This document shows, piece after piece, positions 21,090 through 40,800 of a stretch of DNA of 49,791 nucleotides; positions within the stretch are counted from its first letter, which is position 1, and every line of letters starts with the position of its first letter. Made by a program: the position numbers and the translations under genes. Under the pieces are notes generated by a model, which saw nothing but the letters and a program-made list of their open reading frames with translations, ran no database searches and was not told the origin of the DNA. Origin of the DNA: Verrucomicrobiota bacterium JB024 (lineage in GTDB: Bacteria > Verrucomicrobiota > Verrucomicrobiia > Opitutales > Cerasicoccaceae); contig JAUTCS010000125.1 of the NCBI GenBank assembly GCA_030673825.1, positions 1-49,791 of the forward strand, written 5' to 3'.

Positions 21090-22769
21090 ATGCGTCTTTT
21101 TATTTTATCTGTACGCTACCATCTGCTGTTTGTGTCTTTCGCCGTAGGTGTCTTTGCCGGATTCATGTCACAAACGGCATCAATCGGAGCGCCTAATGGT
21201 GGCATGCACATTATGACTCCAGAGCAGTATGGAGGATCGCCGGATGCCAATGATAACACAGCTGCCTTTGAGGCGATGATCTCGGCGGCCAAGTCCCTAG
21301 GAGAGCCTGTTGAGATACGGCTAGAAGCTGGCGCTTTCTACCGAGTAAAGGGTAAGGAGGGGCGGGAGTGTGCTGTCATGATTTCTGGCGCGCGCGATTT
21401 GACGCTCAACGGTGAGGGGGCGACCTTGGTTATTACAGATCCATCGCGAGGAGGACTACGAACCATCAACTGCGAGCGAATTTGGATAAAGAATCTGGCG
21501 ATAGACTACGACCCGTTGCCCTATACCGCGTCGACGGTTACGGCTGTCAATGTCGAGGAGAACTGGTTCGAGATAAAAATAGAAGATAGCTATCCGAGCC
21601 CCGGGCTTCCGTATTTTTCCGCCGCAAGGAGCCAGTCTGGAATGATGGTGGTTCCCCAACCAGACGGAGGCACACGGTTTGGTCCAGATGTTATTTCGCC
21701 AGAGAGCATCATTGAAACAGGAGATGGTGTTTGGCGTATCTACCCCCAAAAGCACCATGGCGGGTATTCAGACCCGATTGGCCGCAAGCGGGTGGACGTT
21801 GGTGAACAATTTGTTTATTGTGCACGCACCTATGAGCAAGCACTCTCATCGATCGAATGCGTCGATTTACTTTGGGAAAATATAACTATCTACTCCTCTC
21901 CCGGTGTCAGTAGCTATCCCCGCGGAAATGAAAGACATACCATCCGCGGCTACCATGTCGCAATTAAAGAGGGGCGTATCTTTTCCACGAATGCGGATGG
22001 CATCCATATGCGTGGTTCGCGTGGAGATGTCCTGATTGAGGGGTGTTCTTTCGAGGGAATGGGGGATGATGCCATAAACGTACACAGCTCGGCGATGGCG
22101 ATATCTGCACAGCCCGCGAACAACCAGGCAGAGGTTCGCAAGCACACGTACGGCGTACGGATTGGTGACCGTGTCGTTGCCGTTAATTCTTCGACAGCCG
22201 CCAGTATCGGTGAAGCGGAAATCGTTAACATTGAGGATAAAAAGGATTGCTGGATTCTGACGTTTGATCGAGAGCTTATCCTGCCGGAGGGAAATGCTGG
22301 TAATCGCACCAAGAATGAGCATGGAGAGCTGGTTGCAAGCGTAAACCTCTACAACTTGGATGAGTGCGCCTCTCCGTTTATTATACGCGATTGTGTGTTC
22401 AATGCTTTCCGTGGGCGAGGAATATTGGTGAGTGCGCGCGAAGGGGTAATCGAGGATAATATCTTCCGAGATCAGGAAGGGTGGGGTGTTGTTATGAACT
22501 ATGAGTCAAGCCGTTGGGCCGAGGGGCCGATTGCCTCCAATATTACGATCCGAAACAATACATTCATAAAGCCGTACGGCGCACATCAGCCAGCAATTAT
22601 TTCTGATATTACCGCTCGTAGTAATGGAGCACCGATTATGGGTTTCTTTGAAAATATCAGCATAGAAAACAATGTTTTCTATGGCTGGGAAGAGCCGATA
22701 CGCATGAGATTCGTGAACGGGATGATGATGGAAAATAATGAAATTCGTCCTGGCGTCATGACTGAGTAG
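21090..22769 (+). CDS. GH110-like alpha-galactosidase (beta-helix)
   Basis: 559 aa from ATG 21090 (TTG 21081 also in frame). A signal peptide spans about 1-34. Then comes the pectin-lyase-like start (TPEQYGGSPDANDNTAAFEA) and a parallel beta-helix. The GH110 hallmark region is clear: NADGIHMRGSRGDVLIEGCS then FEGMGDDAINVHS, giving Asp303, Asp326 and Asp327 with the spacing remembered for the GH110 catalytic aspartates. Late coils read ASNITIRNNTFIKP and FENISIENNVFYGW. The expected reaction is release of alpha-1,3-linked galactose, possibly from sulfated galactans. It is closer to the family norm than the one at 14644-16722, lacking the extra Ig-like domain. It ends 44 bp before the IS66 remnant, so it is the last gene of the locus. 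Confidence 0.85.
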   Translation: MRLFILSVRYHLLFVSFAVGVFAGFMSQTASIGAPNGGMHIMTPEQYGGSPDANDNTAAFEAMISAAKSLGEPVEIRLEAGAFYRVKGKEGRECAVMISGARDLTLNGEGATLVITDPSRGGLRTINCERIWIKNLAIDYDPLPYTASTVTAVNVEENWFEIKIEDSYPSPGLPYFSAARSQSGMMVVPQPDGGTRFGPDVISPESIIETGDGVWRIYPQKHHGGYSDPIGRKRVDVGEQFVYCARTYEQALSSIECVDLLWENITIYSSPGVSSYPRGNERHTIRGYHVAIKEGRIFSTNADGIHMRGSRGDVLIEGCSFEGMGDDAINVHSSAMAISAQPANNQAEVRKHTYGVRIGDRVVAVNSSTAASIGEAEIVNIEDKKDCWILTFDRELILPEGNAGNRTKNEHGELVASVNLYNLDECASPFIIRDCVFNAFRGRGILVSAREGVIEDNIFRDQEGWGVVMNYESSRWAEGPIASNITIRNNTFIKPYGAHQPAIISDITARSNGAPIMGFFENISIENNVFYGWEEPIRMRFVNGMMMENNEIRPGVMTE

Positions 22770-23675: not shown

Positions 23676-25205
23676 TCAGCCCGGGAAGGTAAAAATAAAC
23701 TCGCTGCCTTGGCCGAGTGCACTCTTCACTTTCACGTGGCCACCGTTGCGTTCGGTGAAATCCTTGACCAAAAGCAACCCGAGTCCTGTGCCGTTTTCAC
23801 TGCGTGTTCCCAACGTAGACTTATTTCCGCGGATGAGGAAAAGCTTGCTCACCGTTTCCTCGCTCATCCCGACTCCAGTATCCTTAATCGAAATGATAAC
23901 ACGCCCATCTTCTTGCCGGGCTGAGACGACGACTTGTCCGCCCTCCTCCGTGAACTTGAGTGCGTTGCTGATGACGTTGTTCAAGATCACGAGAAAAGTG
24001 GCGTGATCGATCTGAAGCCTCATCCCGGGGGGGACCTGATCTATCAGAAATATCTCTTTGGCTTTCGCCGCAGCGGTATGCGAGGCGAGGGATTCCTCCA
24101 CAATATCCTTCAGGACGACGGACTCCTTTTCTATCTTGATCTTGTCGCTTTGAGATCGAGCCCAGTGCAGTAGGTTTTCCAGCAGTTCGAAGGTGATTCT
24201 TGAGGAGTGGTCGATCTCCTTGATGAACTGTAGGCGCTCTTCGTCGTCAAACTTGTCATAGTCCTCAGAGAGGATGTAGGAATAACCCAGTATGGCATTA
24301 AAGGGGTTTCGCAAATCGTGGGCGATAATCGAGAAAAACGTGTCCTTGGTCTTGTTCGATTCGAGCAACTGCTTGTTTACGCTGTCAATTGAATCGATTT
24401 TCAGCTTCAACTCGTGAGCCATATGATTAAAGGACCCGGCCAATAATTGCAGTTCTCCTTTCGTGTCTAGCTCAACCGTTGTTTCCAGGTTCCCGCGGCC
24501 GATTTCAGCTGCACTCTCCACCAGTTGCATCAAAGGCCGGGAGATGGAGCGGGAGATCAGCAGTCCGACTCCGATTGAGAGCAGGATGCTCAGAATCGAC
24601 AGGTAAATCCCCAACCGGATCGCGGTTTTTACCCGAACATTCAACTGACCGATCGCCCACTGGATCTCCGCTTCCTCAGCGGCTGCCAACTCAGCGGCAA
24701 CCACCTGTATTTTGCGAGCTAATGGCTCCAGATCATTTTCAAAATGTTCATAAGTTTCCTTTTCCTGCTGTGCGTCATGTAGTGCGAGTAATCCGTCCAG
24801 TTCTTGAAAGAAATTTGGCATAAGATCGAGTATGGCGTTAAGCCTCTTCAGTTCTTCCTCATCACTTCCTTCCCGCTCGGCTCCCAAATGGGTCGCGGAC
24901 TTCAGCTCTTCCAACGAGGCTTTTAACTTCGGAACCGCCTCTTGTATCTCTTTTCTTGCCAAGTCAATCTCGTCCGGTCGCTCGGCCACCTTGGTTTCCA
25001 GCAGTATCTCCCGGATGTTTGATTTAATCCGCTGGACCAAATACGCGACACGATAGGATTCAATGACTTCTTTCCGCTTCGTGAGTTCTATGTCGTCAAC
25101 CTGACGAATAATTTGGATATTATCCCGCAACGCATGGTAATCCACCGCCATCATGATGGCAACAACCACAATGAACCCGAGAATGATCCTTTTCCAGATC
25201 TTCAT
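23676..25205 (-). CDS. Sensor histidine kinase with HAMP domain
   Basis: 509 aa inner-membrane kinase. TM1 is at about 7-21, an extracytoplasmic helical sensor domain (about 25-195, rich in Glu/Lys/Leu, four-helix-bundle-like), TM2 at about 198-218, HAMP at about 219-270 (SRPLMQLVESAAEIGRGNLE), and HisKA with FFSIIAHDLRNPFNAILGYS (phospho-acceptor His296). The HATPase has the N box (VILNNVISNALKF), G1 (IKDTGVGMSE) and G2 (NGTGLGLLLV). No receiver or PAS domain is visible. It lies 134 bp downstream of the REC-kinase gene on the same strand, the third gene of a likely three-gene unit. The signal is unknown; no cognate DNA-binding regulator is nearby. Confidence 0.93.
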   Translation of the reverse strand: MKIWKRIILGFIVVVAIMMAVDYHALRDNIQIIRQVDDIELTKRKEVIESYRVAYLVQRIKSNIREILLETKVAERPDEIDLARKEIQEAVPKLKASLEELKSATHLGAEREGSDEEELKRLNAILDLMPNFFQELDGLLALHDAQQEKETYEHFENDLEPLARKIQVVAAELAAAEEAEIQWAIGQLNVRVKTAIRLGIYLSILSILLSIGVGLLISRSISRPLMQLVESAAEIGRGNLETTVELDTKGELQLLAGSFNHMAHELKLKIDSIDSVNKQLLESNKTKDTFFSIIAHDLRNPFNAILGYSYILSEDYDKFDDEERLQFIKEIDHSSRITFELLENLLHWARSQSDKIKIEKESVVLKDIVEESLASHTAAAKAKEIFLIDQVPPGMRLQIDHATFLVILNNVISNALKFTEEGGQVVVSARQEDGRVIISIKDTGVGMSEETVSKLFLIRGNKSTLGTRSENGTGLGLLLVKDFTERNGGHVKVKSALGQGSEFIFTFPG

Positions 25206-25339
25206 GCCTTCAGAATTATCGAAAACCCGTTTGGGGTAAAGGACGGAATAATAGCCAACCTTAGCCCACGGCCTTATTCGCGCTGAATGATAAATTTCCC
25301 ATGAGGGCGGCGTGTTAAGTCTACCCTCGAACGTTGTAC

Positions 25340-26467
25340 CTATGGCCGCTCAGAAAACCGCAAGAGGAACCTGGCGCTTTCATTGGGACGGCTGATCAAA
25401 GCGATGCTTCCGCCTTGGGCGTCCATCAGCTCCTTGGCATGGGCCAGTCCCAGGCCGAACGAAGATTCCCCACCGGTGGGCCGGGCGGAGAGCCGTTGGT
25501 TGCGCTGAAAGAGGCGGTCATAGTCCCGGGCCTCGAATCCGGGGCCTTCATCGGAAACAATCAACTGGAGACCCCCGTTGAGGGCCGTGCCCGTCTGGAT
25601 GGCAACGGTGGTTTGTTCCGGCGAATACTTGATCGAGTTGCTGACCAGGTTATCCAAGACTTCCGTCAACAGAACCGGGTCGGCATAGACCGCCGGGCTG
25701 CCCTCAGAACCAAACACCAGCTCGATCTTTTTACGCATGGCCTGCCCCGCGTTTCTCACCTTTACCGATTCATAGATTTCGGGTAGCGAAACAGGCTTCA
25801 TATTCGGCTGCATCTGGCCACTGCGGTTGAACTTTGCGTTGAGTAGTTCGCTTAACGTGTTCAGGGCATTATCGGCGCATTCCTTCATCGCGGAGAGGAA
25901 TTCCGTCAGCGTCTCTTCAGGATTCTCATCCAGTTCATCGCTGTCGGGGTCGAGCAGTAAGGCGGCCAGGCTGCTGATTGAGGCAATGGGGTTCCGAACA
26001 TCGTGAGCAATGATGCCAATTAATTCGCTCTTCTGTTTCAGCAGATGTTCGAGATCCTGGCGCTGCTGCTGGAGCCGGAGGTGCGTGCGCACGCGAGCGA
26101 TAAGCTCCGATGCGTGAAAGGGTTTTGTGACGTAATCGACAGCTCCCGCCAGAAACCCCGCCTCAATATCAGATGTTTCCACCCGGGCAGTCAGAAAAAT
26201 GACAGGCGTATGTTCGAACTTATCCAGGGATTTGATTTGGCGGCAACATTCCAGGCCATCCATGCCCGGCATCGCCACGTCCAGCAAAATGAGGTCGGGC
26301 TCGTGCTCTTCCAGCCAGGTCAGCGCATCGGAGGCGCTGAGGGCAAATGCCAAGGCAATGCCTTCTTTTTCCAGCGTATTGCCCAGCAGCTTCAGGTTTT
26401 CGGGTTGGTCGTCCACTGCCAGAAGCAGAGGGGCATCCTGAGGGGGTATGGGTTCGATGAGTTTCAT
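25340..26467 (-). CDS. REC-histidine kinase fusion
   Basis: 375 aa, soluble. An N-terminal receiver domain (about 13-128; acidic pair at AVDDQPEN, phospho-acceptor Asp63 in LILLDVAMPGMDG, Lys115 in VTKPF) is followed by a short coiled linker and a HisKA domain (LIGIIAHDVRNPIASISSLA, His155) and HATPase (LDNLVSNSIKYS; VSDEGPGFEA; SSFGLGLAHAKEL). The REC-first layout is that of kinases controlled by phosphotransfer from another kinase. The start lies 5 bp after the stop of the large hybrid kinase (26473), so the pair is co-transcribed and most likely acts in sequence. No transmembrane segment or output domain is present. Confidence 0.93.
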   Translation of the reverse strand: MKLIEPIPPQDAPLLLAVDDQPENLKLLGNTLEKEGIALAFALSASDALTWLEEHEPDLILLDVAMPGMDGLECCRQIKSLDKFEHTPVIFLTARVETSDIEAGFLAGAVDYVTKPFHASELIARVRTHLRLQQQRQDLEHLLKQKSELIGIIAHDVRNPIASISSLAALLLDPDSDELDENPEETLTEFLSAMKECADNALNTLSELLNAKFNRSGQMQPNMKPVSLPEIYESVKVRNAGQAMRKKIELVFGSEGSPAVYADPVLLTEVLDNLVSNSIKYSPEQTTVAIQTGTALNGGLQLIVSDEGPGFEARDYDRLFQRNQRLSARPTGGESSFGLGLAHAKELMDAQGGSIALISRPNESARFLLRFSERP

Positions 26468-26472
26468 GAGGG

Positions 26473-29400
26473 CTAGCGGGTTAAGGTGTCGGCGATGGCA
26501 GGCAGCAATTGGCGGATGCGGGATATATCAAATGATTGGGTCGCTTCATGCAGATTTTTACCCAGTTCATCGAGCCGGGGCGAGCCATAACACGCCGAAG
26601 TTTCAACGATGCGAGCAGCCAGTTGTTCGATTTCGCTGATGACGAGAGCATTTTTCTGTCTCAGCACCCGCTCCAGCAACTCCTGCCTGAGTTCATCCGG
26701 AATGGCGGCCATATCTGCTTGCGCTGAGGATGAGGGTTGGGGAAAAGGGGCGATTGTCCCCGGGCGGATATTCCCTTTCAACCAACGGTGGCAGGTCCTC
26801 AGGAGCAGGTTGGGGGGAATGGGTTTGATCAGGCATTCATCAAAACCGTAGTTGAGGAGGGTGGAGGCGTCCTGCTGGAGGCTTGCGGTGATGGCAATAA
26901 TGGGTGTTTGCGAGAAATCGGCATGGTTGCGCAGCCGTTGGCAAACCTCACGTCCGTCCATATCGGGCATGGATAGATCCAGCAGAATCAGGTCCGGGTG
27001 ATGGGTATGGGCCATCTTCAGACCCATGGCACCGCCGGTTGCCTCCAGTGTTTTCAGTTGCGGGATTTGCTCAAAAATCGCCCGCATCAGTTCCCGATTG
27101 GCAGCCACATCTTCGACCATGAGCAAGGTAGCCGGAGGAAACTCAAGGCGGGCGATGTCTTTTTCGTTTCCATCGGCGGCTTCCACAGAGACGACAGCCT
27201 CACGGATTTCCGGAACCGTGAAGAAGAAGCTTGTTCCTTCCCCCACCGTGCTTTTGTAGTCCAGCCTACCACCCATCAGCTTGACCAGCTTCGAGCAGAT
27301 AGCCAGCCCCAGCCCGGTGCCGCCGTGGGCCGCCCCCTCGGCCTGCTCGAATTTGTTAAAAGCGCGTTCACGGAACGATTCGGGGATACCGCAACCGGTA
27401 TCGGTGACCGAGAACTGGAGCGTATAAGCATCCCCCTTTTTCTCAAAACCGAGCTTGACGGTAATGGAACCGTGATCGGTAAACTTGATCGCGTTCGAGA
27501 TCAAGTTGAGCAGGACTTGCTGGAGGCGAAAGCCGTCGAGATTCAGGTAGGAGGGAAGCCCTTCCTGAATATTGATGATCATCAAGACACCCTTGGTGGC
27601 GGCCTGAAGGTGGAAAACGTCCTTGAGTTCATCGAGCTGTCGTTCGAGGTGGACGGGTTTGGTGACCAATTCAATTTTATCGGCTTCGATTTTGGCCAGG
27701 TCCAGCAGGTCGTTGATCAGTCCGAGCAGAGTTTTGCCGCTGGAGCGGATCGACTGGACAAACTGCCGGTGCCGCGGCTCTTGAATTTCGTTGGCCAGCA
27801 GTTCAGAGAAGCCCAGGATGGAATTCATCGGGGTGCGGATTTCATGGCTCATATTGGCCAGAAAGTTGGATTTGGCCTGATTGGCACTCTCGGCCCGCTG
27901 GCGCAGTTGATCCAGTTCCTTTTCCCGCAGCACATCGGCAGTGATGTCTGCGGTGAATATCATAATACCCCCGACGGAATCGTCGGTATCATTCCACGGG
28001 CGGATTTCCCAGCGCAGGTACTGGTCATGACCCCAACCGTTCGGGCGCCAACTGTCGCGCTCGCTGAATGCGACCTCTCCCTCCAGACAACGGCTGTGGA
28101 TGGCTTTCCACTCCTCGCCGATTTCTGGGAAGATATCATAATGACTACTGCCGATGATGTCTTGCCCTTCGAGCTTATAGTCCTGTTTCCACCTATTGCT
28201 GGCGGCAAGATAACGCATACTCCGGTCAAACATGGCGACAGCGGCAGGTGAATGGGTGACATAGGCTTCCAGGCGAGCCTTCTGCCGGTTCAATTCCTGC
28301 TGGGTTTGTTGCAACTCCTGATACCGATGACGGTTAAGGTAAACCAGATGGACGAGGGCCGCGAAGATGACCGCGATACAAACCCCCTCCAATAAGAAAA
28401 AAATGCCCAGACGCTGGTCCACTTCGACGCTATCCTCATCGACATAGATTTCGAATGCGAAATGCGGGCTTAAGCTCACATAGGCGATGCCTTCACCGGG
28501 AGAGCGAGGCGAATCCCAAGCCTGCTTCAGCAGGCTGACCTTAAAGTGAAACAAACCGCGTGGCAGCTTTTCAAGGGGGCGGATGGCATCCTTGACCAGT
28601 TGTTCCTGGTCCACAATGGCCGTCAGGCGGATCGTTGAAACAGTGGCGCTTGAGGGGTCAACTTCATTAATCGTGTAACAAATCTTGCCCGCTGTAATCG
28701 CCTCCGGCACCGCGGTGACAGGAGCGAGGTGTTGCGCCTGGGGCTCTCCGTTCAACCATTGGTTGTAGCGCTGTGCCCCGGATTCAGGTGCCCACCAATC
28801 GATATTCTTTGTCGGAATTTCCACCCGTAGATATTCAGCCGGGGAGTAGTGGCTGAAAAAAGCCGACGCATCCGTTTCCCATTGTCTTTGCTGCTCGGAG
28901 TCTAAATACCCGGCATGATGCGCCATCTGGGAGAGTGCGCTGGTCAGTTTCTCGTTGTACAAATCGAGCAAACCTGCCAGCAGATTGGCTCTCAGGCCGG
29001 CCAGTTCGATTTGCCGTTGCCGGGACTGGGCATGGAATCCCAGAAAAATAGAACCGATGGCGAAAATGGTGCCGAAAAATGCCGGTGCCCACATCCATCG
29101 AAAAGCTTCCCCGTGGAGCGCTCGCCCGCAACGAAAACGCTGCATGATAATCGCAATCGACAGTAAGAAGAAACCGGCGGCGGTGTGAATCGCCATTTCC
29201 GACAATCTGGCACCCAGCCAGATGACACGGGGGATATCTACGATATAGCAGAAAAGCGATGAGCCGGATAGTCCGGCCAAGAAGCAGGAAAGGGACACGA
29301 TCCCGACTTCCACGCGCGGGCTTTTGCCGGGAACTATGCATAAGACAAGGCTGATTGAGCCCAGGATGAAGCAGAGGCTAGTCAGCAGGGACATACGGCC

Positions 29401-29772
29401 CGGCGCGGGCGAATTATCAGTAACGAACGGTTCGCCCAGCAGAGTGTCGACCCCAAGGTTCCAGCCCAGCGCATGCTGGATCAGGTTCAGGATGCCCCAT
29501 ACCAGCAATCCAGCGGTGAGCAGGCGTTCCCAGTGCCAATGATTCCACTTTGGCTGGGTGGATAAGACAAAGAGAGCCCCGGCGAACAAAAGAAAACCAA
29601 TCGCTGTGGTCGTCTGCATCGGGGCGAGGCCTGGAGATATCTGGACCAATATCCGGCTTTTGACGATCCACCCCAGAATGACCACCAGAGCGACAACTCC
29701 GACGACCAGCGATATCGCTATTGTGACCGGACATTTTCGGCATTCATCGCGTTTATCATGTGATTCTGCCAT
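26473..29772 (-). CDS. Hybrid membrane sensor histidine kinase
   Basis: 1099 aa from ATG 29772, preferred over TTG 29802. About eight membrane helices occupy residues 15-250, including the SPGLAPMQTTTAIGFLLFAG segment typical of a group of integral-membrane sensors. An extracytoplasmic CHASE-like region follows (about 255-455), a further helix at 457-478, a PAS domain (about 500-615, HSPAAVAMFDRSMRYLAA), HisKA (FLANMSHEIRTPMNSILGFS, His643), HATPase (LNLISNAIKF; GGTGLGLAIC) and a receiver (LLMVEDVAANREL; Asp932 in LILLDLSMPDMDG). The C-terminal helical tail (about 1010-1099) looks Hpt-like in shape but has no H-x-L-K-G histidine, so onward phosphotransfer must use another protein, perhaps the adjacent REC-kinase. 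Confidence 0.93.
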   Translation of the reverse strand: MAESHDKRDECRKCPVTIAISLVVGVVALVVILGWIVKSRILVQISPGLAPMQTTTAIGFLLFAGALFVLSTQPKWNHWHWERLLTAGLLVWGILNLIQHALGWNLGVDTLLGEPFVTDNSPAPGRMSLLTSLCFILGSISLVLCIVPGKSPRVEVGIVSLSCFLAGLSGSSLFCYIVDIPRVIWLGARLSEMAIHTAAGFFLLSIAIIMQRFRCGRALHGEAFRWMWAPAFFGTIFAIGSIFLGFHAQSRQRQIELAGLRANLLAGLLDLYNEKLTSALSQMAHHAGYLDSEQQRQWETDASAFFSHYSPAEYLRVEIPTKNIDWWAPESGAQRYNQWLNGEPQAQHLAPVTAVPEAITAGKICYTINEVDPSSATVSTIRLTAIVDQEQLVKDAIRPLEKLPRGLFHFKVSLLKQAWDSPRSPGEGIAYVSLSPHFAFEIYVDEDSVEVDQRLGIFFLLEGVCIAVIFAALVHLVYLNRHRYQELQQTQQELNRQKARLEAYVTHSPAAVAMFDRSMRYLAASNRWKQDYKLEGQDIIGSSHYDIFPEIGEEWKAIHSRCLEGEVAFSERDSWRPNGWGHDQYLRWEIRPWNDTDDSVGGIMIFTADITADVLREKELDQLRQRAESANQAKSNFLANMSHEIRTPMNSILGFSELLANEIQEPRHRQFVQSIRSSGKTLLGLINDLLDLAKIEADKIELVTKPVHLERQLDELKDVFHLQAATKGVLMIINIQEGLPSYLNLDGFRLQQVLLNLISNAIKFTDHGSITVKLGFEKKGDAYTLQFSVTDTGCGIPESFRERAFNKFEQAEGAAHGGTGLGLAICSKLVKLMGGRLDYKSTVGEGTSFFFTVPEIREAVVSVEAADGNEKDIARLEFPPATLLMVEDVAANRELMRAIFEQIPQLKTLEATGGAMGLKMAHTHHPDLILLDLSMPDMDGREVCQRLRNHADFSQTPIIAITASLQQDASTLLNYGFDECLIKPIPPNLLLRTCHRWLKGNIRPGTIAPFPQPSSSAQADMAAIPDELRQELLERVLRQKNALVISEIEQLAARIVETSACYGSPRLDELGKNLHEATQSFDISRIRQLLPAIADTLTR

Positions 29773-29909
29773 GCCCCCACTTTTCAGAATATTTGTTTTC
29801 AACGCGACTGTTTAGTGCGTTAATTTGACGGACATGTCTGTCTCTGTCATGTTTGGCGTTGAGCGAATGAGACGGGAGCCACAGTGATTCTAAGGCCTTC
29901 AATAACGAA

Positions 29910-29934
29910 AAGAGCCCGGCGACGCCGGGCTCTT
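29910..29934 (-). terminator. Rho-independent terminator of PEP-CTERM gene
   Basis: A perfect 11-bp stem (AAGAGCCCGGC / GCCGGGCTCTT) with a 3-nt loop at 29921-29923. Read on the minus strand it is followed by TTTTCGTTATT, a reasonable U-tract. It lies 42 bp after the stop of the PEP-CTERM gene ending at 29977 and upstream of the hybrid kinase start, so it separates the two transcripts. Confidence 0.85.
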
Positions 29935-29976
29935 CAACGGGATGGTATGATGGGGCTTGCTGGCTGCGTGCTGGGC

Positions 29977-30564
29977 CTAGCAATTCTTGTTACGGCGGTA
30001 CCGCCTGAAGCCTAAGGCAAATAATCCAGTGCCGATCCCCACCATAAAAGCCGTTTGGGCGGGTTCGGGAACTTGCTCAGCAGTGATGGATGACAAAGTT
30101 GCGGTATCCGCTAAATTAAAATTAGTAGCAGCAAAAGTAACAACGGAGCCTACGGACACAAGCAGAGGAACATCCAAGTTATAATTGCTGGCTGCAATGG
30201 CCGACAGCATAATCGGGTCGCCCCCATCTACTGAAAGAGTGAAATCACCACCCGTTCCAATCACGCTGCCAATTGAGTAACCGGTTATGTAAACATCGGT
30301 ATCGAAACTCAGGTCGAATGTTGAAACCGCAACAACAGTTACATCTGTCGAGTTGCTGAATACAATGCCTTGAGGTGTCGCGACGAAGAGTCCTGTTCCA
30401 GTGCGCGTCTGAACCGGGGCATCAACCGTGAGTGTTACGCCTGCAATCGTCTGCACTTGCTGGTCTGTGCCAGCGAGTGCATCTCCAAAAGGAAACGAGA
30501 TAGCGTGCAATGCCGGAGCGCAGAGGGCTGTGCAGAGCGCAAACAGGATAGTAAGCTTGTACAT
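29977..30564 (-). CDS. Small PEP-CTERM protein between signalling groups
   Basis: 195 aa. It has a signal peptide (MYKLTILFALCTALCAPALHA). The small beta-rich domain (about 25-165; DVTVVAVSTFDLSFDTDVY, SIGSVIGTGGDFTLSVDGG) is followed by a classic tail: VPEPAQTAFMVG, a hydrophobic helix and RRYRRNKNC. The body matches nothing I can name. It should be sorted by an exosortase to the outer surface. It has its own strong terminator and lies alone between two divergent groups of kinase genes. A link to them is possible but not shown. The region upstream (30565-31048) is a long non-coding gap shared with the plus-strand kinase gene. Confidence 0.85.
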   Translation of the reverse strand: MYKLTILFALCTALCAPALHAISFPFGDALAGTDQQVQTIAGVTLTVDAPVQTRTGTGLFVATPQGIVFSNSTDVTVVAVSTFDLSFDTDVYITGYSIGSVIGTGGDFTLSVDGGDPIMLSAIAASNYNLDVPLLVSVGSVVTFAATNFNLADTATLSSITAEQVPEPAQTAFMVGIGTGLFALGFRRYRRNKNC

Positions 30565-31048
30565 AGAATGTAAGGGTGTGGTGTGAAATACAGGTCAGGT
30601 AGTAAGAATTGGAGTAGTGTGAAATGCAGGCATCGTCAACCTGAAAATATCACAAATAAAAGAGTTGTAGGCATTGTGGTTTATTAATCCATGTCGGACA
30701 TAGACTTGCGCATCTTTCCTGTAGGAACCACATATTTGAACATGCGTCTCCAGTCGCATTTTTACAAAATATTAGCACGCGGATGAACGATATTTGGCCG
30801 GTGGCCACACCTCGATCCAGATATTCCCCAATACCTTGAGCAAGTCGGCATGATACGATTCGCTTGGGACTTCGGCCTCGGCACTGCCCCGGTCCCCCCT
30901 AAGCCTTAAAGTGATCTTTGGCAGCTAAAGATTTCACCTTAGCAATTTGTAAAAACTGCCGATTGCAGATTACTTCCCCAGCAATGCATTTCCTCTGTTT
31001 CATCAAGCCCCGAGGAGACTGTCTCTAACACCAATCCAAACAAACGAC
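30565..31048. other. 484-bp divergent non-coding region
   Basis: No convincing gene on either strand. It separates the minus-strand PEP-CTERM gene from the plus-strand kinase gene at 31049 and should hold both promoters. The part near 30600-30780 is AT-rich; a short TGGCC-GGT-GGCCA inverted repeat lies near 30796. I see no riboswitch or small RNA that I can support. Confidence 0.4.
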
Positions 31049-32623
31049 GTGGATGCTAAATCTCATGGTGACTGGTCTGGCGGACACGCCTGGACGCACT
31101 TTGTCGACAACCTGACATCTTTTCTGATCTTCTGCGTTATCGGGCTCATTATCCTTCGCTACTTCAAAAGACGTTTAAGCCGTGATAATGCTTGGGGAGG
31201 CTATTGCCTGAGCGGATTTATATTCCTGTGTGGAGTGAGCCATCTGGCCGAATCTCTGGCACTGATTTGGCCCTCCGAATTTTTGCTCTGGAGCCTGGAT
31301 ATCCTAACCATCACATCGGCATTCCTGACGATTGTCCTGTTCATTCCAATGCTTCCTCAGTTGTTGAAAATACCGACGGTTGGCGATCTCCAGGGGGAGA
31401 TTCGCCGCCGGGTAGAAACTGAAGCCCGTTTGCGGGATAGTGAGGAAACGTTGAGAAGTGCGTTCACCCATGCCCCTATCGGCATGTCCTTGGTATCCAC
31501 GGCAGGCCAATGGATGCGGGTGAATCAACAGGTCTGCCAGATTGTGGATTACCCCGAGGAAGAGCTCCTTCAGATGACTTTCCAACAGATCACCCATCCC
31601 GAGGATTTGCATTCCGACATGGATCTGCTGAAAGCCTGTCTGAGGGGTGAGCGCGATTCCTACTCGATGGAGAAACGTTATATTCGCAAGGATGGCTCTG
31701 TGGTCCCCATTCAGCTCTATGTTTCGCTGGTGCGCGATGCTGCCAGGCAGCCCCGTTTTTTTGTGTCGCAGATAAAAGACATCCGCCAGGATAAAGCCTT
31801 GCAGCAGCAGCAGAGAAAACTCATCGGAGAACTTCAGCAAAAAACGGACGAACTCCAGCAGATTGTTTATGTGGCTTCCCACGACTTGCGTTCCCCATTG
31901 GTCAATATTATAGGATTCAGTGATGAGTTGAAGCACTGCTGCCATAACCTGAAGACAGCGGCTGCGGGCGGAGACCATACTTCGATTGGGGCTATTATAG
32001 ACGGGGAGATTCCCTCGATCCTGGAATTCATCACCTCCAGTGCGCAACGGATGGATCAGCTCTTGAACGGCCTTTTGCAGTATTCCCGGATGGGACGCTA
32101 TCCAATGACACTGGAACTCATTGACATGAATGAACTGGTGCAAGGACTAAGCAACGAGTTCTCTGTCCAGTTAAGGAAAATTGACGGTCATTTCGTGGTG
32201 GAGACGCTCCCCCCGTGTTATGGCGACGCTATCCTGGTCAGCCAATTGATGAGTAACCTGATCGATAACGCCATCAAGTACCGCTCGCCGGAACGTCGCC
32301 TGGAGCTCAGAGCAACGGGAGAGCAAGGAGTTGGAGTTGTCCGCTATACGCTTGCCGACAACGGCATCGGAATCGCTCCTGATCATCAAGCTGATATTTT
32401 CGACATTTTTAATCAAATCAACCCCTCCGAAAGCACAGGAGAGGGCTTGGGCTTGAGCATTTGCAGTCTTATCGCTAATAAACTGGGCGGTCGCATCTAC
32501 GTGGAATCCGTTGCCGGAGAAGGGGCCGCTTTCCACATTGAGATTCCGATTGCCGAACGTTATCCTGATATTTTGAGACCTGAACAAGAACCCGGTAACT
32601 CCTTGTTTTCGATCCTGCCATGA
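31049..32623 (+). CDS. PAS-histidine kinase with ethylene-receptor-like N-terminus
   Basis: 524 aa from GTG 31049; no in-frame ATG is available upstream of the first helix. Residues 16-106 form three membrane helices resembling the ethylene-binding domain of plant ETR1 and cyanobacterial relatives: the second helix reads FIFLCGVSHL with Cys61 and His65 in the four-residue spacing of the copper ligands Cys65/His69 of ETR1, and Ile58 matches Ile62. Asp20 lies near the ETR1 Asp25 position; the Tyr32 position is Phe or Ile. Then a PAS fold (about 131-246), HisKA (YVASHDLRSPLVNIIGFSDE, His278) and HATPase (MSNLIDNAIKY; GEGLGLSICSLI). The stop overlaps the next start by ATGA. The ligand is unproven; related domains may sense other small hydrophobic molecules or redox. 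Confidence 0.88.
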   Translation: MDAKSHGDWSGGHAWTHFVDNLTSFLIFCVIGLIILRYFKRRLSRDNAWGGYCLSGFIFLCGVSHLAESLALIWPSEFLLWSLDILTITSAFLTIVLFIPMLPQLLKIPTVGDLQGEIRRRVETEARLRDSEETLRSAFTHAPIGMSLVSTAGQWMRVNQQVCQIVDYPEEELLQMTFQQITHPEDLHSDMDLLKACLRGERDSYSMEKRYIRKDGSVVPIQLYVSLVRDAARQPRFFVSQIKDIRQDKALQQQQRKLIGELQQKTDELQQIVYVASHDLRSPLVNIIGFSDELKHCCHNLKTAAAGGDHTSIGAIIDGEIPSILEFITSSAQRMDQLLNGLLQYSRMGRYPMTLELIDMNELVQGLSNEFSVQLRKIDGHFVVETLPPCYGDAILVSQLMSNLIDNAIKYRSPERRLELRATGEQGVGVVRYTLADNGIGIAPDHQADIFDIFNQINPSESTGEGLGLSICSLIANKLGGRIYVESVAGEGAAFHIEIPIAERYPDILRPEQEPGNSLFSILP

Positions 32624-33069
32624 ACCAATCCGTTGACCCATCCCAGCTCACGATTATCCTCGCCGATGATGATGTCGGGCACCGCTTGCTGATTAAGCGA
32701 AACCTGCGTCGCAGCAACATTACCAATGAGATTCTGGAGTTTGGTGATGGCGAGAGCCTGATCAAGTTCCTCATGGGCTGTAAGGAGGACCCTGTGCAGA
32801 AAAACAGGCGCTTCCTTGTCATGCTGGACATCCGCATGCCCCGGATGGATGGCACACGGGCTCTGGCCATCATCAAGCAGGACCCGGATCTGAAGCGAAT
32901 CCCCATTATCATGCTGACGACCACGGAGGACCCTCAGGAGATCGAACGCTGCCATGATCTTGGCTGCAATAGCTATGTGAAGAAACCCATTGACCACGAA
33001 CAGTTTATAAATGCAATACGACAATTGGGACTTTATCTCTCCATTGTCGCCGTCCCTAGCCTTAAATAA
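32620..33069 (+). CDS. Single-domain response regulator, Rcp1-like
   Basis: 149 aa, one receiver domain and nothing else: acidic pocket ILADDDVGH, phospho-acceptor Asp70 in VMLDIRMPRMDG, Thr in MLTTTEDPQE, Lys in YVKKPIDHEQF. The extended loop before the Asp (GCKEDPVQKNRR) is typical of Rcp1-type regulators that partner phytochrome-like and PAS kinases. Its ATG overlaps the kinase stop (ATGA, 32620-32623), which strongly implies that it is the direct phosphorylation target of that kinase. It probably shuttles phosphate to or from the hybrid protein encoded 8 bp downstream, since it has no output of its own. Confidence 0.94.
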   Translation: MNQSVDPSQLTIILADDDVGHRLLIKRNLRRSNITNEILEFGDGESLIKFLMGCKEDPVQKNRRFLVMLDIRMPRMDGTRALAIIKQDPDLKRIPIIMLTTTEDPQEIERCHDLGCNSYVKKPIDHEQFINAIRQLGLYLSIVAVPSLK

Positions 33070-33077
33070 TACTCGTC

Positions 33078-35087
33078 ATGCCCGACTCCTTTCACCCCCA
33101 AACGCATACCATCCTCATCGTCGAGGATGATCCTGGCACTCGACAGCTGATCGGCATGAGGCTGAAGCGAAGGGGGATGAATATCTTGACGGCAGGCAGC
33201 GGCCGGGAAGCCATTGAGCAATTGGAGCATGCCTCTGAAACGATAGGTTTGGTACTTTTGGATTACCGGTTGGTGGACACCAACGCCGAGAAGCTCATCA
33301 AGGAGCACTGGGCGCGTTTGGGTAACCCGGCTTTTATCGTCCTGACTGGGTTCGGGGACGAGCGTGTTGCCGTCAAACTGATGAAGCTGGGAGCGGAAGA
33401 CTACATCGTCAAAGACAAAGATTTTCACGAACTACTGACGGAAGCGGTTGACCGTACCCTCCAGCATCTGGACAGCCAGCGCCGGGTGGAAATAATGGAG
33501 AAGCAGTTGCGCGAAAGCGAGGAACGACTGGCTCTCGCCCTTAATGTGGCCGGTGTGGCCGTCTGGGACGTCGATGTGGAGAAAAACACGGCGATTGTGT
33601 GCGAGCGATGGTGCCGCTTGATAGGGCAGTCTTATCCGCCGGGCCCCGTACCACTGGAGGTACTACACGACCATGTTTATTCGGAAGACCGCGAAAAAAT
33701 CCATGCCGGGTGGGCGCATTTCCTGAGGCAGCCGGAAAAGCTCTATGACGAAACCTACAGGATTCGTGACATCCAGGGAAACCTGCATTGGGTGCACGAT
33801 CAGGGGATTGTCGTTCAGAAGGATGCGGATGGGACCGTTCAGCGTGTGATCCGCGCCATCAACGATGTCAGTGAGAGTAAACGCATTCAGGAGCTGGAAC
33901 TTCAGATGTTGCGGGCTCAGCGCATGGAAACGCTTGGCACACTGGCCAGTGGCATCGCGCATGATTTTAACAATGTGCTGGCGGCCATTCTTGGCTTCAC
34001 TGAGTTGACGATGCGTTGGGCGGATCGCCCCAAGGATGTTGTCGAGAATTGTGGGCGAGTGATCATGGCTTCTCAGCGTGCCAAAGAAGTGATCCGGCAG
34101 ATACTCCTGTTTTGCCGGGATACTCCTCCTCAAAAGAAACCGCATGATCTTAGAGCGATTGCTGACGAGTTTATTGAGATGTCAAAGGGCTCGCTGCCTG
34201 ATTCAATCACCGTAAAGCGGGATTATCGGGTGGAACAAGCCGTTGTCGACGCCGATGCCGGGCTACTAGGCCAAGTCGTTACCAACCTGCTGACCAATGC
34301 GGCCCAGGCCATGCCTGATCGGACTGGCACGATCCTTGTGCGTGTCGATACCTTCCGCGACCTTGATGTAGATATTTCTGATCAGGTCCCTGACCACGTG
34401 GCACCTGCCAGTGGTTACGTCTTGGAAATACATGACGATGGCAGTGGCATTGATCCCAAGAGCCTGGGACACATCTTTGAACCCTTTTACAGCACCAAGG
34501 CGCAGACTCAGGGAACCGGCCTTGGCTTGGCTACGGCCCAAGGGATCGTCCACTCTCACGACGGTATCATCCGGGTCGAGAGTGAGCTTGGCAAGGGGAC
34601 CTGTTTCCGAGTCTTCTTACCCGCGGGCAAAGTTGCCTCTCAGGGGGCGCAGCCATCAGAACAAGCGGCCATTAGCTGCAAAAAAGGCAGGCGTATCCTC
34701 TTTGTGGACGACCAGCACCTGCTGGCCGAGGCAAACTCGCGGCTGCTAGTGGAATGCGGCTATGAAGTGACGACTTTTAACAATCCGCAACATGCCTTGG
34801 AGCATTTCAAAAACCAGGATTCCGGCTACGAACAGGTGATCAGCGATTACAGCATGCCCCAGCTTACCGGCGTACAATTACTCAGAGAGCTGACACAAAT
34901 CCGCCCCCAGCTCAAATGCATATTGATCACGGGAAACCTGGAGACAAATTCCAACGTGCTTGATGAACTCCCTGAACAAACTGTTGTTTTGCGCAAGCCC
35001 TATTCCCTGAACCAATTGCTTGAGGTGATCGAGAATCAGCAATCTTCCGCTCCTGGGGTTTCATGTATCCGAGATGTTTCTTTCTAG
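33078..35087 (+). CDS. REC-PAS-histidine kinase-REC hybrid
   Basis: 669 aa, soluble. Order: receiver (about 10-125; LIVEDDPGTRQL, Asp62 in VLLDYRLVD, Lys112), PAS/PAC (about 145-268, ending VIRAINDVSESKR), HisKA of the NtrB-like type (LGTLASGIAHDFNNVLAAIL, His295), HATPase (TNLLTNAAQAM; IHDDGSGIDPKS; GTGLGLATAQGI) and a C-terminal receiver (ILFVDDQHLLAE, Asp590 in VISDYSMPQLTG, ending in RKPYSLNQLLEV). Both ends can accept phosphate, so it can serve as a relay station. It lies 8 bp after the single-domain regulator and forms a three-gene unit with it and the ethylene-receptor-like kinase. There is no DNA-binding or enzymatic output domain. Confidence 0.93.
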   Translation: MPDSFHPQTHTILIVEDDPGTRQLIGMRLKRRGMNILTAGSGREAIEQLEHASETIGLVLLDYRLVDTNAEKLIKEHWARLGNPAFIVLTGFGDERVAVKLMKLGAEDYIVKDKDFHELLTEAVDRTLQHLDSQRRVEIMEKQLRESEERLALALNVAGVAVWDVDVEKNTAIVCERWCRLIGQSYPPGPVPLEVLHDHVYSEDREKIHAGWAHFLRQPEKLYDETYRIRDIQGNLHWVHDQGIVVQKDADGTVQRVIRAINDVSESKRIQELELQMLRAQRMETLGTLASGIAHDFNNVLAAILGFTELTMRWADRPKDVVENCGRVIMASQRAKEVIRQILLFCRDTPPQKKPHDLRAIADEFIEMSKGSLPDSITVKRDYRVEQAVVDADAGLLGQVVTNLLTNAAQAMPDRTGTILVRVDTFRDLDVDISDQVPDHVAPASGYVLEIHDDGSGIDPKSLGHIFEPFYSTKAQTQGTGLGLATAQGIVHSHDGIIRVESELGKGTCFRVFLPAGKVASQGAQPSEQAAISCKKGRRILFVDDQHLLAEANSRLLVECGYEVTTFNNPQHALEHFKNQDSGYEQVISDYSMPQLTGVQLLRELTQIRPQLKCILITGNLETNSNVLDELPEQTVVLRKPYSLNQLLEVIENQQSSAPGVSCIRDVSF

Positions 35088-36666: not shown

Positions 36667-39600
36667 TCAGCAAGTCTTTCGGGCGCGGCGGCGCTGCCAG
36701 ACCACGATCGAGGCTCCGAGGGCCAGGAGCAGCGCGGTGACGGAGGGCTCCGGTACCGCCGTGAAGTCGAGGTACACGTCGTCGCCCTGTAGCGACACGG
36801 CGAAGCTGCCGATGCCCGCGGTAAACTCATTACCGAAGGCGTCCTGCGAAACCTGAATGTCGCTGAAGACGAGCAGGTCCACGTCGGGGGTCAGCGCGTT
36901 GTCGAAGATCAGCCATGACTGGTTGGTGTCCCAAAAGGCGTCGGTGAAGTTGACGATGGAGGAGGTGCCGTTGAACGACAGATAGAGCGTCGCCGACGGG
37001 TTGATAGTCAGGAGACCACCGGTCACATCCACCCCGTCGAAGTTCGTGCCGCGGCCACTGGTGCTGTTGGCGATGAACTCGATTTCGACCGAGGAATCTT
37101 CGGTCAGGGTCAGCCCGTTGGTGAAGGTCAGCACGCCGGGCGAGTTGCCGGGGGCGAGCAGGCCGCTGACGGTGGTCGCGGCGTTGATGACACCGCTGCC
37201 CATCAGCCCGGCCCCGTTGTTGACGACGAGTGTGCCGCCGAGGGAGCCATTGACCGCGAGCATGCCCTGCGCGATGGAGAACTCACCGATATTGGTGCTG
37301 GTGCCGGTCAGGGTGAGGTTTCCGAGACCCGTCTTGACGAGATTACCCGAGCCGGTGAAACCACCCGCGAAGCTGGCGTTGAAGCCGTTGGTGTCGATGG
37401 TCGAGGTCGTGCCGGTGCGCAGCTCAGGGTTGATGCCGGAGGACACGCTCAGGTTGCTATCGATCACACGCAGGGTGCCGCCACCGAAGCGGAAGTTGGC
37501 CGCGCCACCGTTGCCGGTACGGATACGGTTGCTCCCGCCGGCTTCGAGGACGCCGCCGTCGAGGTTGTAGGTGCCGGTACCGCGCTGGCCGATGACGAGG
37601 TTGCCGCCGTCACGGATCGAAACCGTGCCGCCGGTCTGGTTGACCGTGCCCGAGCCGGTTAGAGGCTCGGTGTCCTGGGCGCCGCCCAGGAGCAGGTCCG
37701 TCCCTTCGGTGAAGATGAGGTCGCCTCCGCTGACGTTGAGCGTGCCGTTCCCTGTACCCCAGGTGCCGGAGCGTCCAAGCACCATGCCGTTGGAGCCACT
37801 GACATTGATCGTGCCCGCGATGAGGTTGTACACGCCGGTGGCCTGATTGCCGATGTGGATGATCCCGTCGTCGGAGAGCTTGTTGACGATGCCGCCGGTC
37901 TGGTTGACCGTGCCCGAGCCCGTCGTGCCAAAGCCGCCGACGTACATGTCCGAGCGGATGGCGCCGTCCGTGGCATCCCCCAGGTTGAGGACGCCCCCAT
38001 CGATGTTGAGGATACCGGTATTGGCCCCGGTATCTTGGCTGCCCACGAGGACATCCGCGCCGTTGGTGAGCTTCAGGTTGATCGTGCCGTCGGTGAGGGT
38101 GAAGGTGCCGTCGGCCACGCCGAGGACGGAAGGCTCGGCCCCCACAAGCAGGCGGGCTAGGTCCGTGGTGCCCGAGCTGTGCTCGATCTCGCCTTGCTCA
38201 ACCGCCAGCGCATGAAAGCTCCGGTCCGCCGAGCTCAGATCGAGGGTGCCGGTACCCGTCTTGACGAGCCAGCCGTCCCCGTCGATACCGCCCGAGAAGC
38301 TGGCGTTGAAACCGTTCGTGTCGATGACGGATGGTGTAAAGGCCGGGTAGGTGTCGTTATTAACGAGCGTGAAGTCCATCGAGGTGCTCAGGTTGCTCTC
38401 GATCACCTTGATCGTGCCGCCCCCGAGGGTGAAGGTGCTGGTGCCCCCGCCAGTGCGGATGCCGTTGGTCCCGCCGATTTCGAGCGTACCGTCGTTCAGC
38501 GTGTACGAGCCCGTGCCGGAGCCGAACTGCAGATACCCGCCATTGGTGATCGAAACCGTGCCGCCGGTCTGTGTGATGCTGCCGGTGGAGGAGGCGCCGG
38601 TGGCCACGGCGACGTTGCCGCCGAAGTTCGCGGTGCCGCCGCTCATGTTGTATTCGCCGTCACCGTTGTAGCCGATGGTGGTTGCGGTATTCGTGGCGGT
38701 GAGTGTACCGCCGCTTTGGTCGAGCACGCCGGTGGCACCGTCAGCGGAGCCGAAGCGCAGGGAGACCGTGTCAAAGGTCAGGTCACCGGCCTCCAGGTTG
38801 TAGGTACCCGCGCCGCCGGAGGTCGTACCGAACCAGGCCGCACGACCGGAGGTATCACCCCGGAACTCGACCACGGTGCCCGAGCCGATCTGGTTGATCG
38901 TGCCTTCGCCGCCTTCGCCGATAAAGGACTGCGTATCGACCTCCTGGATGAACTGGGCGTCATCGTAGAGATTCATGATACCGACCCCGCCGGTGGTTTC
39001 ACCGAGGTAGAAGGTGGAGCCGTCACCGCCGAGGATGAGCTGGGCGTCATTGTGCAGGTTATAGGTACCGGAGCCGCCGACCACGCCGATCTGCAGCGCC
39101 GCGGCAGTGTTGAAATCAACGATGCCGCCGGTCTGGTTGACAATACCGGTGGAGCCGGTGCCCCAGCCGACGTCGTAGGTGACGTACTGGCCCGTGCCGT
39201 ACTGGGCACTCGTGATGAGGCCGTCGGACATGTTGAGCGTGCCGTAGCCGCCGTCCATGCCGACCTCGAGGCGGGCGAGGTCGCCGTCGAGGCCGAGCGT
39301 GAGTGTGCCGCCGTTAACATTTAAAATGCCGGTGGAGTCGCGGCCGACAAAGAGCTGGGCGTAACCGCTGCCATTACCGATCAGTTCCAGGCTGGAGCCG
39401 CTCTCGAGCGTAAGGGTCGCGAAGTTACCGGCCTCCTCGCCGCCGACGAAGATGTCCGGGCTGACGCCGTCCTGGGCGACGGTCACATCGGCCCCGCTTT
39501 GCAGGGTGAGGTCAGCGTCTTCGGCCACGATCATCGCGTAGCGTCCACCGTAGTTGGGGTTGTCCTCACTGCCACCGGTAAGGGTGACGGTGGTGGAGAC

Positions 39601-40800
39601 ATTGGTGTCGCCCCAGGTTTCGATGGCGGCGGCTTCGATCGCGCCGTCACCCGTCAGGTTCATGGTGGCGTTATTTTCGGCGAAGAGGTAGCCGTCGTCA
39701 TTGAGCGTGAGGGTCGCGCCGTTGGCGATGCTCAGGGTAACATCGCCGTTGAGGACGCCGATGCTGCGCGCATCGGTGTCGCTGTTGACCGCCGCGGTAA
39801 AGGTGGCCGCATCGGTGAAGACGACATTCTGGGTGGGGGAGGGGCCAGCATCGTCGCTCCAGTTGGTGGCGAGGGTAAAGTCCTGCGTACCAGTGGTGGC
39901 GCCGACCCAGGTGGAGGCGTCCACGAAGTCGATCACGTCGCCATCGTTGAGGAAATTGACCGCGGCCCAGTCGAGAGTGCTGGAGGCTGCATCACCGCCG
40001 GAGCCGACGCCGAACTGCATATTCGAGACGGTGCCGCCGGAAACGAGATCGCCGAGCGTTCCCTTGCCGTTGAGCACGATATCGCTCTCCATGATCTCTT
40101 GCAGCGAGTTGAAAGTGCCAAGCGGGCCGGAGCCATAGAAGCCGTTTGAGGCCTGCGCATACACGTACCAGATATTGTCACCGGTGCCGCTGTAGGTATA
40201 GTTTTCGGTATAGAATTCGCCCGCCAGGTCGGCGTTCTGGTTCCATCCGACGATAATGATATCCCAGCTGCCTTCCCCGGAGCGGATGGCGCTGAAGCCC
40301 TCCTGCGACTGGCCGGTTCCCGTGCCCCAGAGGGAGCTCTGGATGCCGATCTTCAGTGACGGGGGAGAGTACGAGGAGGGGCTGCTCCGGGACACGACTG
40401 AATAGCCAAAGGCCGCCTGGAAGTCCGCGTTAAGCAAGGCGGATGCGGACCCGAAACCGGTTGGGCTATTAAGCAAGCTGATGGTGCTCTTGGAGGAGGG
40501 GCCGTTTTGGTCGAGATGGACGCCACCCAGGTTACCACGCGTGCCGAAGTTATTCTGCCAGTAAATCTGGTTCTCTACCGCAGTGGGATCGTTACTGGCC
40601 CCGGCGGCGGGAGCGTGCGTATCGTCGGTGATGATGTTGGTGTTGTTGAAGCGTACGTCGTCGGGTTGCCAGCCATTACCGGGGGCGCCGTCGCCGAAGC
40701 CGGTGATGGCGGCGTTATCTGCATAGGCGCTCCCGGAGATGCCAACCTCCAGGACGGTCAATAGAAACAGTGAGAAGAGTATTAGGTCCGATTTTTTCAT
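36667..40800 (-). CDS. Large PEP-CTERM autotransporter-repeat surface protein
   Basis: 1377 aa. A signal peptide spans about 1-27 (ending SAYA). Residues about 28-290 form a globular domain with no name I can give. From about 295 on, the protein is a long beta-solenoid of autotransporter-associated beta-strand repeats, with many short units such as GSGTVNQTGGIV, GTYNLDGGVLEAGG and NVSGSNGMVLG, and blocks GNLVKTGLGNLTLTGTS typical of that family. After GVINAATTVSGLLAPGNSPG comes the conserved PATR-end segment. The tail is VPEPSVTALLLALG, a hydrophobic helix and WQRRRARKTC: an exosortase signal rather than an outer-membrane barrel. Two copies of a module of about 85 residues are visible (see findings). 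Likely a surface fibre or adhesin. High-GC repetitive DNA gives long antisense frames that I reject. Confidence 0.92.
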   Translation of the reverse strand: MKKSDLILFSLFLLTVLEVGISGSAYADNAAITGFGDGAPGNGWQPDDVRFNNTNIITDDTHAPAAGASNDPTAVENQIYWQNNFGTRGNLGGVHLDQNGPSSKSTISLLNSPTGFGSASALLNADFQAAFGYSVVSRSSPSSYSPPSLKIGIQSSLWGTGTGQSQEGFSAIRSGEGSWDIIIVGWNQNADLAGEFYTENYTYSGTGDNIWYVYAQASNGFYGSGPLGTFNSLQEIMESDIVLNGKGTLGDLVSGGTVSNMQFGVGSGGDAASSTLDWAAVNFLNDGDVIDFVDASTWVGATTGTQDFTLATNWSDDAGPSPTQNVVFTDAATFTAAVNSDTDARSIGVLNGDVTLSIANGATLTLNDDGYLFAENNATMNLTGDGAIEAAAIETWGDTNVSTTVTLTGGSEDNPNYGGRYAMIVAEDADLTLQSGADVTVAQDGVSPDIFVGGEEAGNFATLTLESGSSLELIGNGSGYAQLFVGRDSTGILNVNGGTLTLGLDGDLARLEVGMDGGYGTLNMSDGLITSAQYGTGQYVTYDVGWGTGSTGIVNQTGGIVDFNTAAALQIGVVGGSGTYNLHNDAQLILGGDGSTFYLGETTGGVGIMNLYDDAQFIQEVDTQSFIGEGGEGTINQIGSGTVVEFRGDTSGRAAWFGTTSGGAGTYNLEAGDLTFDTVSLRFGSADGATGVLDQSGGTLTATNTATTIGYNGDGEYNMSGGTANFGGNVAVATGASSTGSITQTGGTVSITNGGYLQFGSGTGSYTLNDGTLEIGGTNGIRTGGGTSTFTLGGGTIKVIESNLSTSMDFTLVNNDTYPAFTPSVIDTNGFNASFSGGIDGDGWLVKTGTGTLDLSSADRSFHALAVEQGEIEHSSGTTDLARLLVGAEPSVLGVADGTFTLTDGTINLKLTNGADVLVGSQDTGANTGILNIDGGVLNLGDATDGAIRSDMYVGGFGTTGSGTVNQTGGIVNKLSDDGIIHIGNQATGVYNLIAGTINVSGSNGMVLGRSGTWGTGNGTLNVSGGDLIFTEGTDLLLGGAQDTEPLTGSGTVNQTGGTVSIRDGGNLVIGQRGTGTYNLDGGVLEAGGSNRIRTGNGGAANFRFGGGTLRVIDSNLSVSSGINPELRTGTTSTIDTNGFNASFAGGFTGSGNLVKTGLGNLTLTGTSTNIGEFSIAQGMLAVNGSLGGTLVVNNGAGLMGSGVINAATTVSGLLAPGNSPGVLTFTNGLTLTEDSSVEIEFIANSTSGRGTNFDGVDVTGGLLTINPSATLYLSFNGTSSIVNFTDAFWDTNQSWLIFDNALTPDVDLLVFSDIQVSQDAFGNEFTAGIGSFAVSLQGDDVYLDFTAVPEPSVTALLLALGASIVVWQRRRARKTC

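Follow-up and report, generated by a model that had tools for sequence, protein, structure and literature searches.

Almost certainly, the gene at 31049..32623 (+ strand) of Verrucomicrobiota bacterium JB024 encodes a kinase of the ethylene-receptor family; judging from the residues of its binding site, the sensor has probably lost high-affinity ethylene binding, with the kinase and its regulator remaining conserved. The gene lies in the window, the whole stretch of 49,791 nucleotides that was analyzed. Its 524-aa product, which begins at a GTG start and was delineated from the ORF, Pfam matches, and full-length orthologs, is a sensor histidine kinase composed of an ETR1-type membrane domain, PAS, HisKA, and HATPase. 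The ETR1-type three-helix domain covers aa 13–108 (31085..31372, + strand), followed on the same strand by the PAS domain (aa 135–245; 31451..31783; PF00989/PF08447), the HisKA domain (aa 269–348; 31853..32092; PF00512), with the H-box SHDLRSP from aa 277, and the HATPase_c domain (aa 392–502; 32222..32554; PF02518), in which we found the motifs that we take to be its N, D, and G boxes. Upstream of the gene, two imperfect 31-nt direct repeats lie 36 bases apart (window 30564–30630); they may be due to chance.

The ETR1_N profile (PF25487) matched the kinase with 42.1 bits (E 1.1e-10) in the Pfam scan, above the curated cut-off of 27 and far above chance; 96 kinase residues (13–108) were aligned to 96 profile positions (2–97). 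In the 163 contigs (4.60 Mb) of the genome this was the single match to the profile (46.3 bits, E 1.7e-11), and none of 14 control genomes had one. A search with an ethylene-binding-domain profile was the check that the earlier note had proposed for its ethylene-receptor-like membrane domain, and that claim is borne out by homology, both through this match and through the orthologs described below. In a scan of the kinase against NCBIfam, only the sensory_box PAS model reached its cut-off among the 25 listed of 87 families, and those 25 were all kinase and PAS-bearing models.

The AF2 model of the window protein, built from a five-row alignment, contained three long helices (aa 11–42, 45–73, and 77–106) plus a linker helix (pLDDT 78, pTM 0.55), as did that of the Cerasicoccus frondis ortholog (pLDDT 81.8, pTM 0.62); the three N-terminal helices would lie in the membrane, ahead of the signalling domains. 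Foldseek returned no match to the PDB at E ≤ 0.001 for either model, the top rows (all E > 0.001) being small subunits of complex I along with further helical proteins, and a sequence search of solved structures with the membrane domain returned nothing at E ≤ 1. Because Foldseek gave no match at that level, structure neither supports nor opposes the ethylene-receptor claim. The lack of a structural match would also fit a three-helix membrane domain of unrelated origin, similar to ETR1 only by coincidence. That explanation is scarcely credible given the E value of 1.1e-10 for PF25487, and it is already refuted by the domains of 64–125 bits found at the same position in four orthologous genes.

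Domains of this kind are not rare in the lineage. Of the 384 genomes examined from the class, 52 had a PF25487 match, which exceeded the cut-off in 50, so that the suggestion that such a domain would be notable here did not hold. Matches were also found in 24 of 387 genomes drawn from the phylum (a draw that overlaps that of the class), in 37 of 117 from the phylum of an Oscillatoriales genome, in 19 of 289 from the class of a Phenylobacterium genome, and in 20 of 199 from the phylum of a Planctomycetales genome. A sample was drawn from 246 loci, a subset of all the matches found, to which each search contributed no more than 30; removal of duplicates and of rows with >12 core gaps reduced 175 matches to 155 domains, namely 154 from prokaryotes and the ETR1 row. 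Two phylum genomes (L256 and L263) were left out. Altered sites are over-represented in the sample, since it includes 20 added matches from the class and 20 mainly low-scoring matches from the cyanobacterial phylum. All seven ethylene-binding residues were present in 90 of the 154 non-redundant prokaryote domains, six in 27, and five or fewer in 37; with this share of complete sites, in a sample enriched for weak matches, annotation as an ethylene receptor should not rest on a match to PF25487 by itself. Two close genomes of the same class (G147 and G209; loci L052 and L053) retain Cys65 but have Phe in place of His69 and Tyr32, Met in place of Ile35, and Ala in place of Pro36, and appear to carry another worn ethylene domain. 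A tblastn search of plasmids with the membrane domain yielded 3 records at 25–27% identity. On plasmid p2 of Novosphingobium sp. ES2-1, typed as conjugative, a protein with a distant match to the ethylene-type domain (L255, 2929–4396; 25% identity to the window protein; annotated as an ATP-binding protein) is found with a response regulator near a cas9 gene.

The residues of the binding site were compared by alignment with those of ETR1. Tyr32 of ETR1 was presumably the seventh required residue and was treated as such. Seven residues of ETR1 are required for ethylene binding (PMC11819568, PMC6682694), the positions having been found necessary by alanine scanning; the accessible text of that study names Asp25 and Cys65 (PMC11819568), and that of another names Ile35, Pro36, Ile62, Cys65, and His69 (PMC6586836). 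In modeling, Asp25 positions His69 and pairs with Lys91 (PMC11819568). The window protein retains four of the seven. Ile58, Cys61, and His65 (31220..31243, + strand) correspond to ETR1 Ile62, Cys65, and His69, in agreement with the earlier note, and thus preserve the copper-ligand pair; Ile31 corresponds to Ile35. The same codon stretch (31130..31144, + strand) encodes Phe28 and Gly32 at the positions of Tyr32 and Pro36; of the two readings first offered for the Tyr32 position, Phe or Ile, it was Phe that stood and Ile that did not. The residue aligned with Asp25 is Asn21 (31109..31111, + strand). Asp20, which had been put forward as lying near the Asp25 position, is one residue off and was rejected as its equivalent: the register is ungapped, with 40 residues between Asn21 and Cys61 as between ETR1 Asp25 and Cys65, and is fixed upstream by Trp15 and His17, which were invariant in the five-row alignments. 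On helix 3, Lys91 is replaced by Asp84 (31298..31300, + strand), a reversal of charge, so that the Asp25–Lys91 pair of helices 1 and 3 is missing and Asn21 and Asp84 stand in its place. Read across positions 25/32/35/36/62/65/69/91, the signature is NFIGICHD, as compared to DYIPICHK in 86 of the 155 domains. A Cys near the N-terminus, which may form a dimer disulfide in cyanobacterial receptors (PMC6682694), is also missing from the window protein; of the 90 prokaryote domains that keep the complete set of seven, 88 have it (one of the others having a different residue and one a gap).

Full-length orthologs of the kinase, membrane domain included, were found in four others among the 10 family genomes searched with the whole protein, with identities to the window kinase of 50, 46, 46, and 44%. 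All belong to one other genus, Cerasicoccus (Verrucomicrobiota, Opitutia, Puniceicoccales, Cerasicoccaceae in the NCBI taxonomy): C. frondis (L070), C. arenae (L071), C. maritimus (L073), and genome G007. Three additional genomes, from the genus to which JB024 itself belongs, matched neither PF25487 nor, at E ≤ 1e-20, the regulator; their best kinase matches start at residue 113 or later and thus do not include the membrane domain. Of 273 genomes sampled across the order, 7 had a match at E ≤ 1e-70, with the membrane domain covered only in the same five (window included). In a Planctomycetales MAG (L072), a more distantly related kinase has an intact domain and lies next to a regulator. All seven residues are retained in C. 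frondis and G007. C. arenae departs at a single one of the seven, with Tyr in place of His69, and C. maritimus at four, with Phe in place of Tyr32, Val of Ile35, Ala of Pro36, and Ser of Cys65. The N-terminal Cys follows the same division: C. frondis, G007, and the Planctomycetales protein have it, and the three damaged proteins (window, C. arenae, and C. maritimus) do not.

Conservation of the kinase was uneven along its length. For the intact pair, C. frondis and G007, the membrane domain was the best conserved part (70.8% identity, as compared to 66.1% for PAS, 63.5% for HisKA, 62.7% for HATPase, and 52.0% for the linker). For the window protein against the four orthologs it was the lowest of the four domains, at 25–31% versus 47–59% for PAS, HisKA, and HATPase (the short linker gave 21–48%). 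The membrane domain of C. maritimus was 28–37% identical to those of the other four proteins and its PAS, HisKA, and HATPase 47–70%; that of C. arenae, at 61.5% identity to C. frondis, was not clearly less conserved than the other domains (61.9–72.9%). Terminal branch lengths of the membrane domain were divided by those of PAS plus kinase, on the PAS-plus-kinase topology, giving ratios of 3.2 for the window protein, 3.15 for C. maritimus, 2.5 for C. arenae, 1.09 for G007, 0 for C. frondis (a branch of zero length), and 0.6 for the Planctomycetales outgroup. Over the kinase alone, the corresponding ratios were 2.1, 2.7, 1.7, 0.88, 0, and 0.39. The three highest are those of the three damaged lineages; with six tips and node supports of 47, 65, and 87, the ratios serve as a description and not as a test. 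The earlier note had raised the prospect of a copper/ethylene-type sensor. A working receptor of that kind fits poorly with the change of three of the seven binding residues and of the helix-3 Lys, in a domain far less conserved than the PAS and kinase domains, and good ethylene binding by the window protein is unlikely on this comparison. Relaxed constraint on the sensor, with a kinase and regulator that are still useful, is the simplest account.

An ethylene receptor that still works but with lowered affinity, in which Asn21 would act like ETR1 Asp25Asn and Phe28 would replace Tyr32, seems very doubtful to us. According to the accessible part of a review, exchange of the conserved Asp for Asn leaves the receptor functional with an affinity about 100-fold lower (PMC13012798, citing Aman 2025), and natural variants of the aspartate exist (PMC13012798, whose sources are Aman 2025 and Azhar 2023). 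Four hybrid kinases of the same family (L002, 1414–3009; L009; L010, reverse strand; L011) have Asn25 and Leu91 with Tyr32, Cys65, and His69 kept, and appear to be natural Asp25Asn receptors; L011 also has Pro36Ser. They favor a lowered-affinity receptor, as does retention of the copper ligands in the window protein, and the reported function of ETR1 Asp25Asn (PMC13012798), together with the mildness of a Tyr to Phe exchange, counts against the reading of loss. In the window protein, however, Tyr32, Pro36, and Lys91 are changed too, at a site where alanine scanning of ETR1 reportedly left none of the seven positions dispensable (PMC11819568), and the membrane domain is poorly conserved.

Copper binding by the window domain is possible, since Cys61 and His65 are kept. 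It is the basis of another alternative, a retuned sensor in which Cys61 and His65 would still bind Cu(I), the acid would have shifted from its place on helix 1 (Asp25) to one on helix 3 (Asp84), and the pocket would read copper itself or a ligand other than ethylene; we consider this improbable, though deserving of weight. Six domains in the sample are altered at all of positions 25, 32, and 36, and only the window protein among them keeps both copper ligands, which hints at selection and argues against simple loss; of the other five, three score just 18–28 bits with our own profile and may for that reason not be true members. Retention of Cys and His was nevertheless rejected as proof of a copper site and is weak evidence by itself, because both ligands are kept by 5 of the 20 domains in which at least two of these positions are altered. 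Positions 25 and 91 covary in the 126 domains (ETR1 included) that have Cys65 and His69: Asp/Lys in 104, Asp/other in 5, other/Lys in 4, and other/other in 13, one 'other' being a gap (Fisher test, 1e-10, relatedness ignored). On a domain tree of 125, which is weak (98 columns, two masked), Asp25 was lost nine times, one of these a gap (the L220 row, counted as without Asp25), and Lys91 six times, with joint loss on three branches; Lys91 was kept in four of the nine Asp25 losses, which weakens the case for a coupled shift.

The combination of Asn25 with Asp91 occurs twice among the 155 domains, in the window protein and in L231. The two are probably independent in origin, since L231 groups with L243 (Asn25/Arg91; support 0.997) and the orthologs of the window protein have Asp25/Lys91. 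The window protein itself was placed with three other divergent rows (0.80), probably by long-branch attraction. No further case of Asn25/Asp91 was found in the order of genome G608, where two of 10 genomes had the domain, both already in the sample. The proteins of L231 (1526–2116, – strand, 196 aa) and L243 (1166–1747, + strand, 193 aa) have the ethylene domain without a kinase, next to a separate histidine kinase gene, in what looks like a split receptor. Recurrence of the combination in L231 favors retuning and may mean that it is functional; the fast change of the membrane domain is consistent with adaptation as well. Against retuning stand its reliance on a single sequence, the identity of just 25–31% to the membrane domains of the orthologs, and the loss of the N-terminal Cys. 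More speculatively, and with a low probability in our estimation, an ethylene-receptor fold may have been turned into a different copper-based sensor, the Cys and His having been kept, the aromatic and proline residues replaced, and the Asn25/Asp91 swap having arisen at least twice in bacteria.

The gene that follows the kinase encodes an Rcp1-like stand-alone response regulator of 149 aa (32620..33069, + strand), overlapping the kinase stop by four bases (ATGA). Against solved structures it matched RCP1 (1i3c) at E 4.3e-18, its best match being the CheY-type receiver 3heb (E 1.5e-41), and the presence of an Rcp1-like regulator next to the kinase, as noted before, was thus upheld. A hybrid REC-PAS-HisKA-HATPase-REC protein of 669 aa, identified with Pfam, comes third (33078..35087, + strand). 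Features of a two-component system are present in the kinase motifs, the receiver Asp and Lys, and the adjoining position of the genes. From their spacing and conserved order, the three genes are presumed to form one operon: the order is identical in C. frondis, C. arenae, and C. maritimus, where identities to the window proteins are 43–49% for the kinase, 45–58% for the regulator, and 42–44% for the hybrid protein. Regulator matches at E ≤ 1e-20 were found in four others of the 10 family genomes. The genes belong to a longer two-component run (window 23676–35087), made up of a HAMP kinase, a REC-kinase, and a hybrid kinase on the – strand and then the three + strand genes; a small ORF between the two sets (29977–30564) reads as PEP-CTERM-like. 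Elsewhere in the window, a 1377-aa ORF (36667–40800, – strand) matched nothing in Pfam at E ≤ 0.001, and a beta-helix protein (21081–22769, + strand) matched NosD only marginally (23.7 bits against a cut-off of 23.6).

Among known systems, AzoEtr1/AzoRR-etr1 of Azospirillum brasilense is similar in layout, with 525 aa, a three-helix ethylene domain, PAS, histidine kinase, and an adjoining regulator gene; unlike the window protein, which keeps four of the seven residues, AzoEtr1 keeps all seven and is reported to bind ethylene (PMC11819568). SynEtr1 (slr1212) of Synechocystis and GeiEtr1/2 also have the N-terminal ethylene domain on a histidine kinase, and SynEtr1 signals to a regulator; SynEtr1 differs in having a cyanobacteriochrome domain, GeiEtr1 and GeiEtr2 in keeping the seven residues, and these cyanobacterial proteins in having the N-terminal Cys, according to the accessible text of PMC6682694. 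Bacterial carriers of ethylene receptors named in the accessible part of another paper are proteobacteria and cyanobacteria (PMC7700396). Our search of the accessible literature on bacterial ethylene receptors, Verrucomicrobiota, and Cerasicoccus found no report of these genes among the papers listed; judging by title and abstract, those for Verrucomicrobiota dealt with moss kinases and a rhizobial inoculant, and the one for Cerasicoccus dealt with cattle feed. Arabidopsis ETR1 shares with the window protein the three-helix domain, the Cys/His copper pair, and the Ile35 and Ile62 positions; in the window protein Asp25, Tyr32, Pro36, and Lys91 are replaced, PAS takes the place of GAF, and the regulator is separate.

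The history that we favor, loss of high-affinity ethylene binding from a kinase that continues to function, can be reconstructed as follows. The window kinase would descend from an intact ethylene-receptor-type kinase of the sort still found in sister species. In the window lineage, constraint on the ethylene pocket would then have been lost: Asp25, Tyr32, Pro36, and Lys91 were replaced and the N-terminal Cys disappeared, with Cys65 and His69 staying in place. The membrane domain would now most likely serve as a three-helix anchor and dimerization module, with ligand sensing at most weak. The better-conserved PAS and kinase domains, with PAS probably as the main input, would still drive phosphotransfer to the adjoining Rcp1-like regulator and to the hybrid protein. 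Across five related bacteria, the sensor of this one kinase occurs in two intact and three differently damaged forms, a set of naturally occurring mutants of the ethylene site. Such a set makes it possible to ask which of the residues hold ethylene and which of them copper, and how a receptor kinase behaves once its ligand has been lost.
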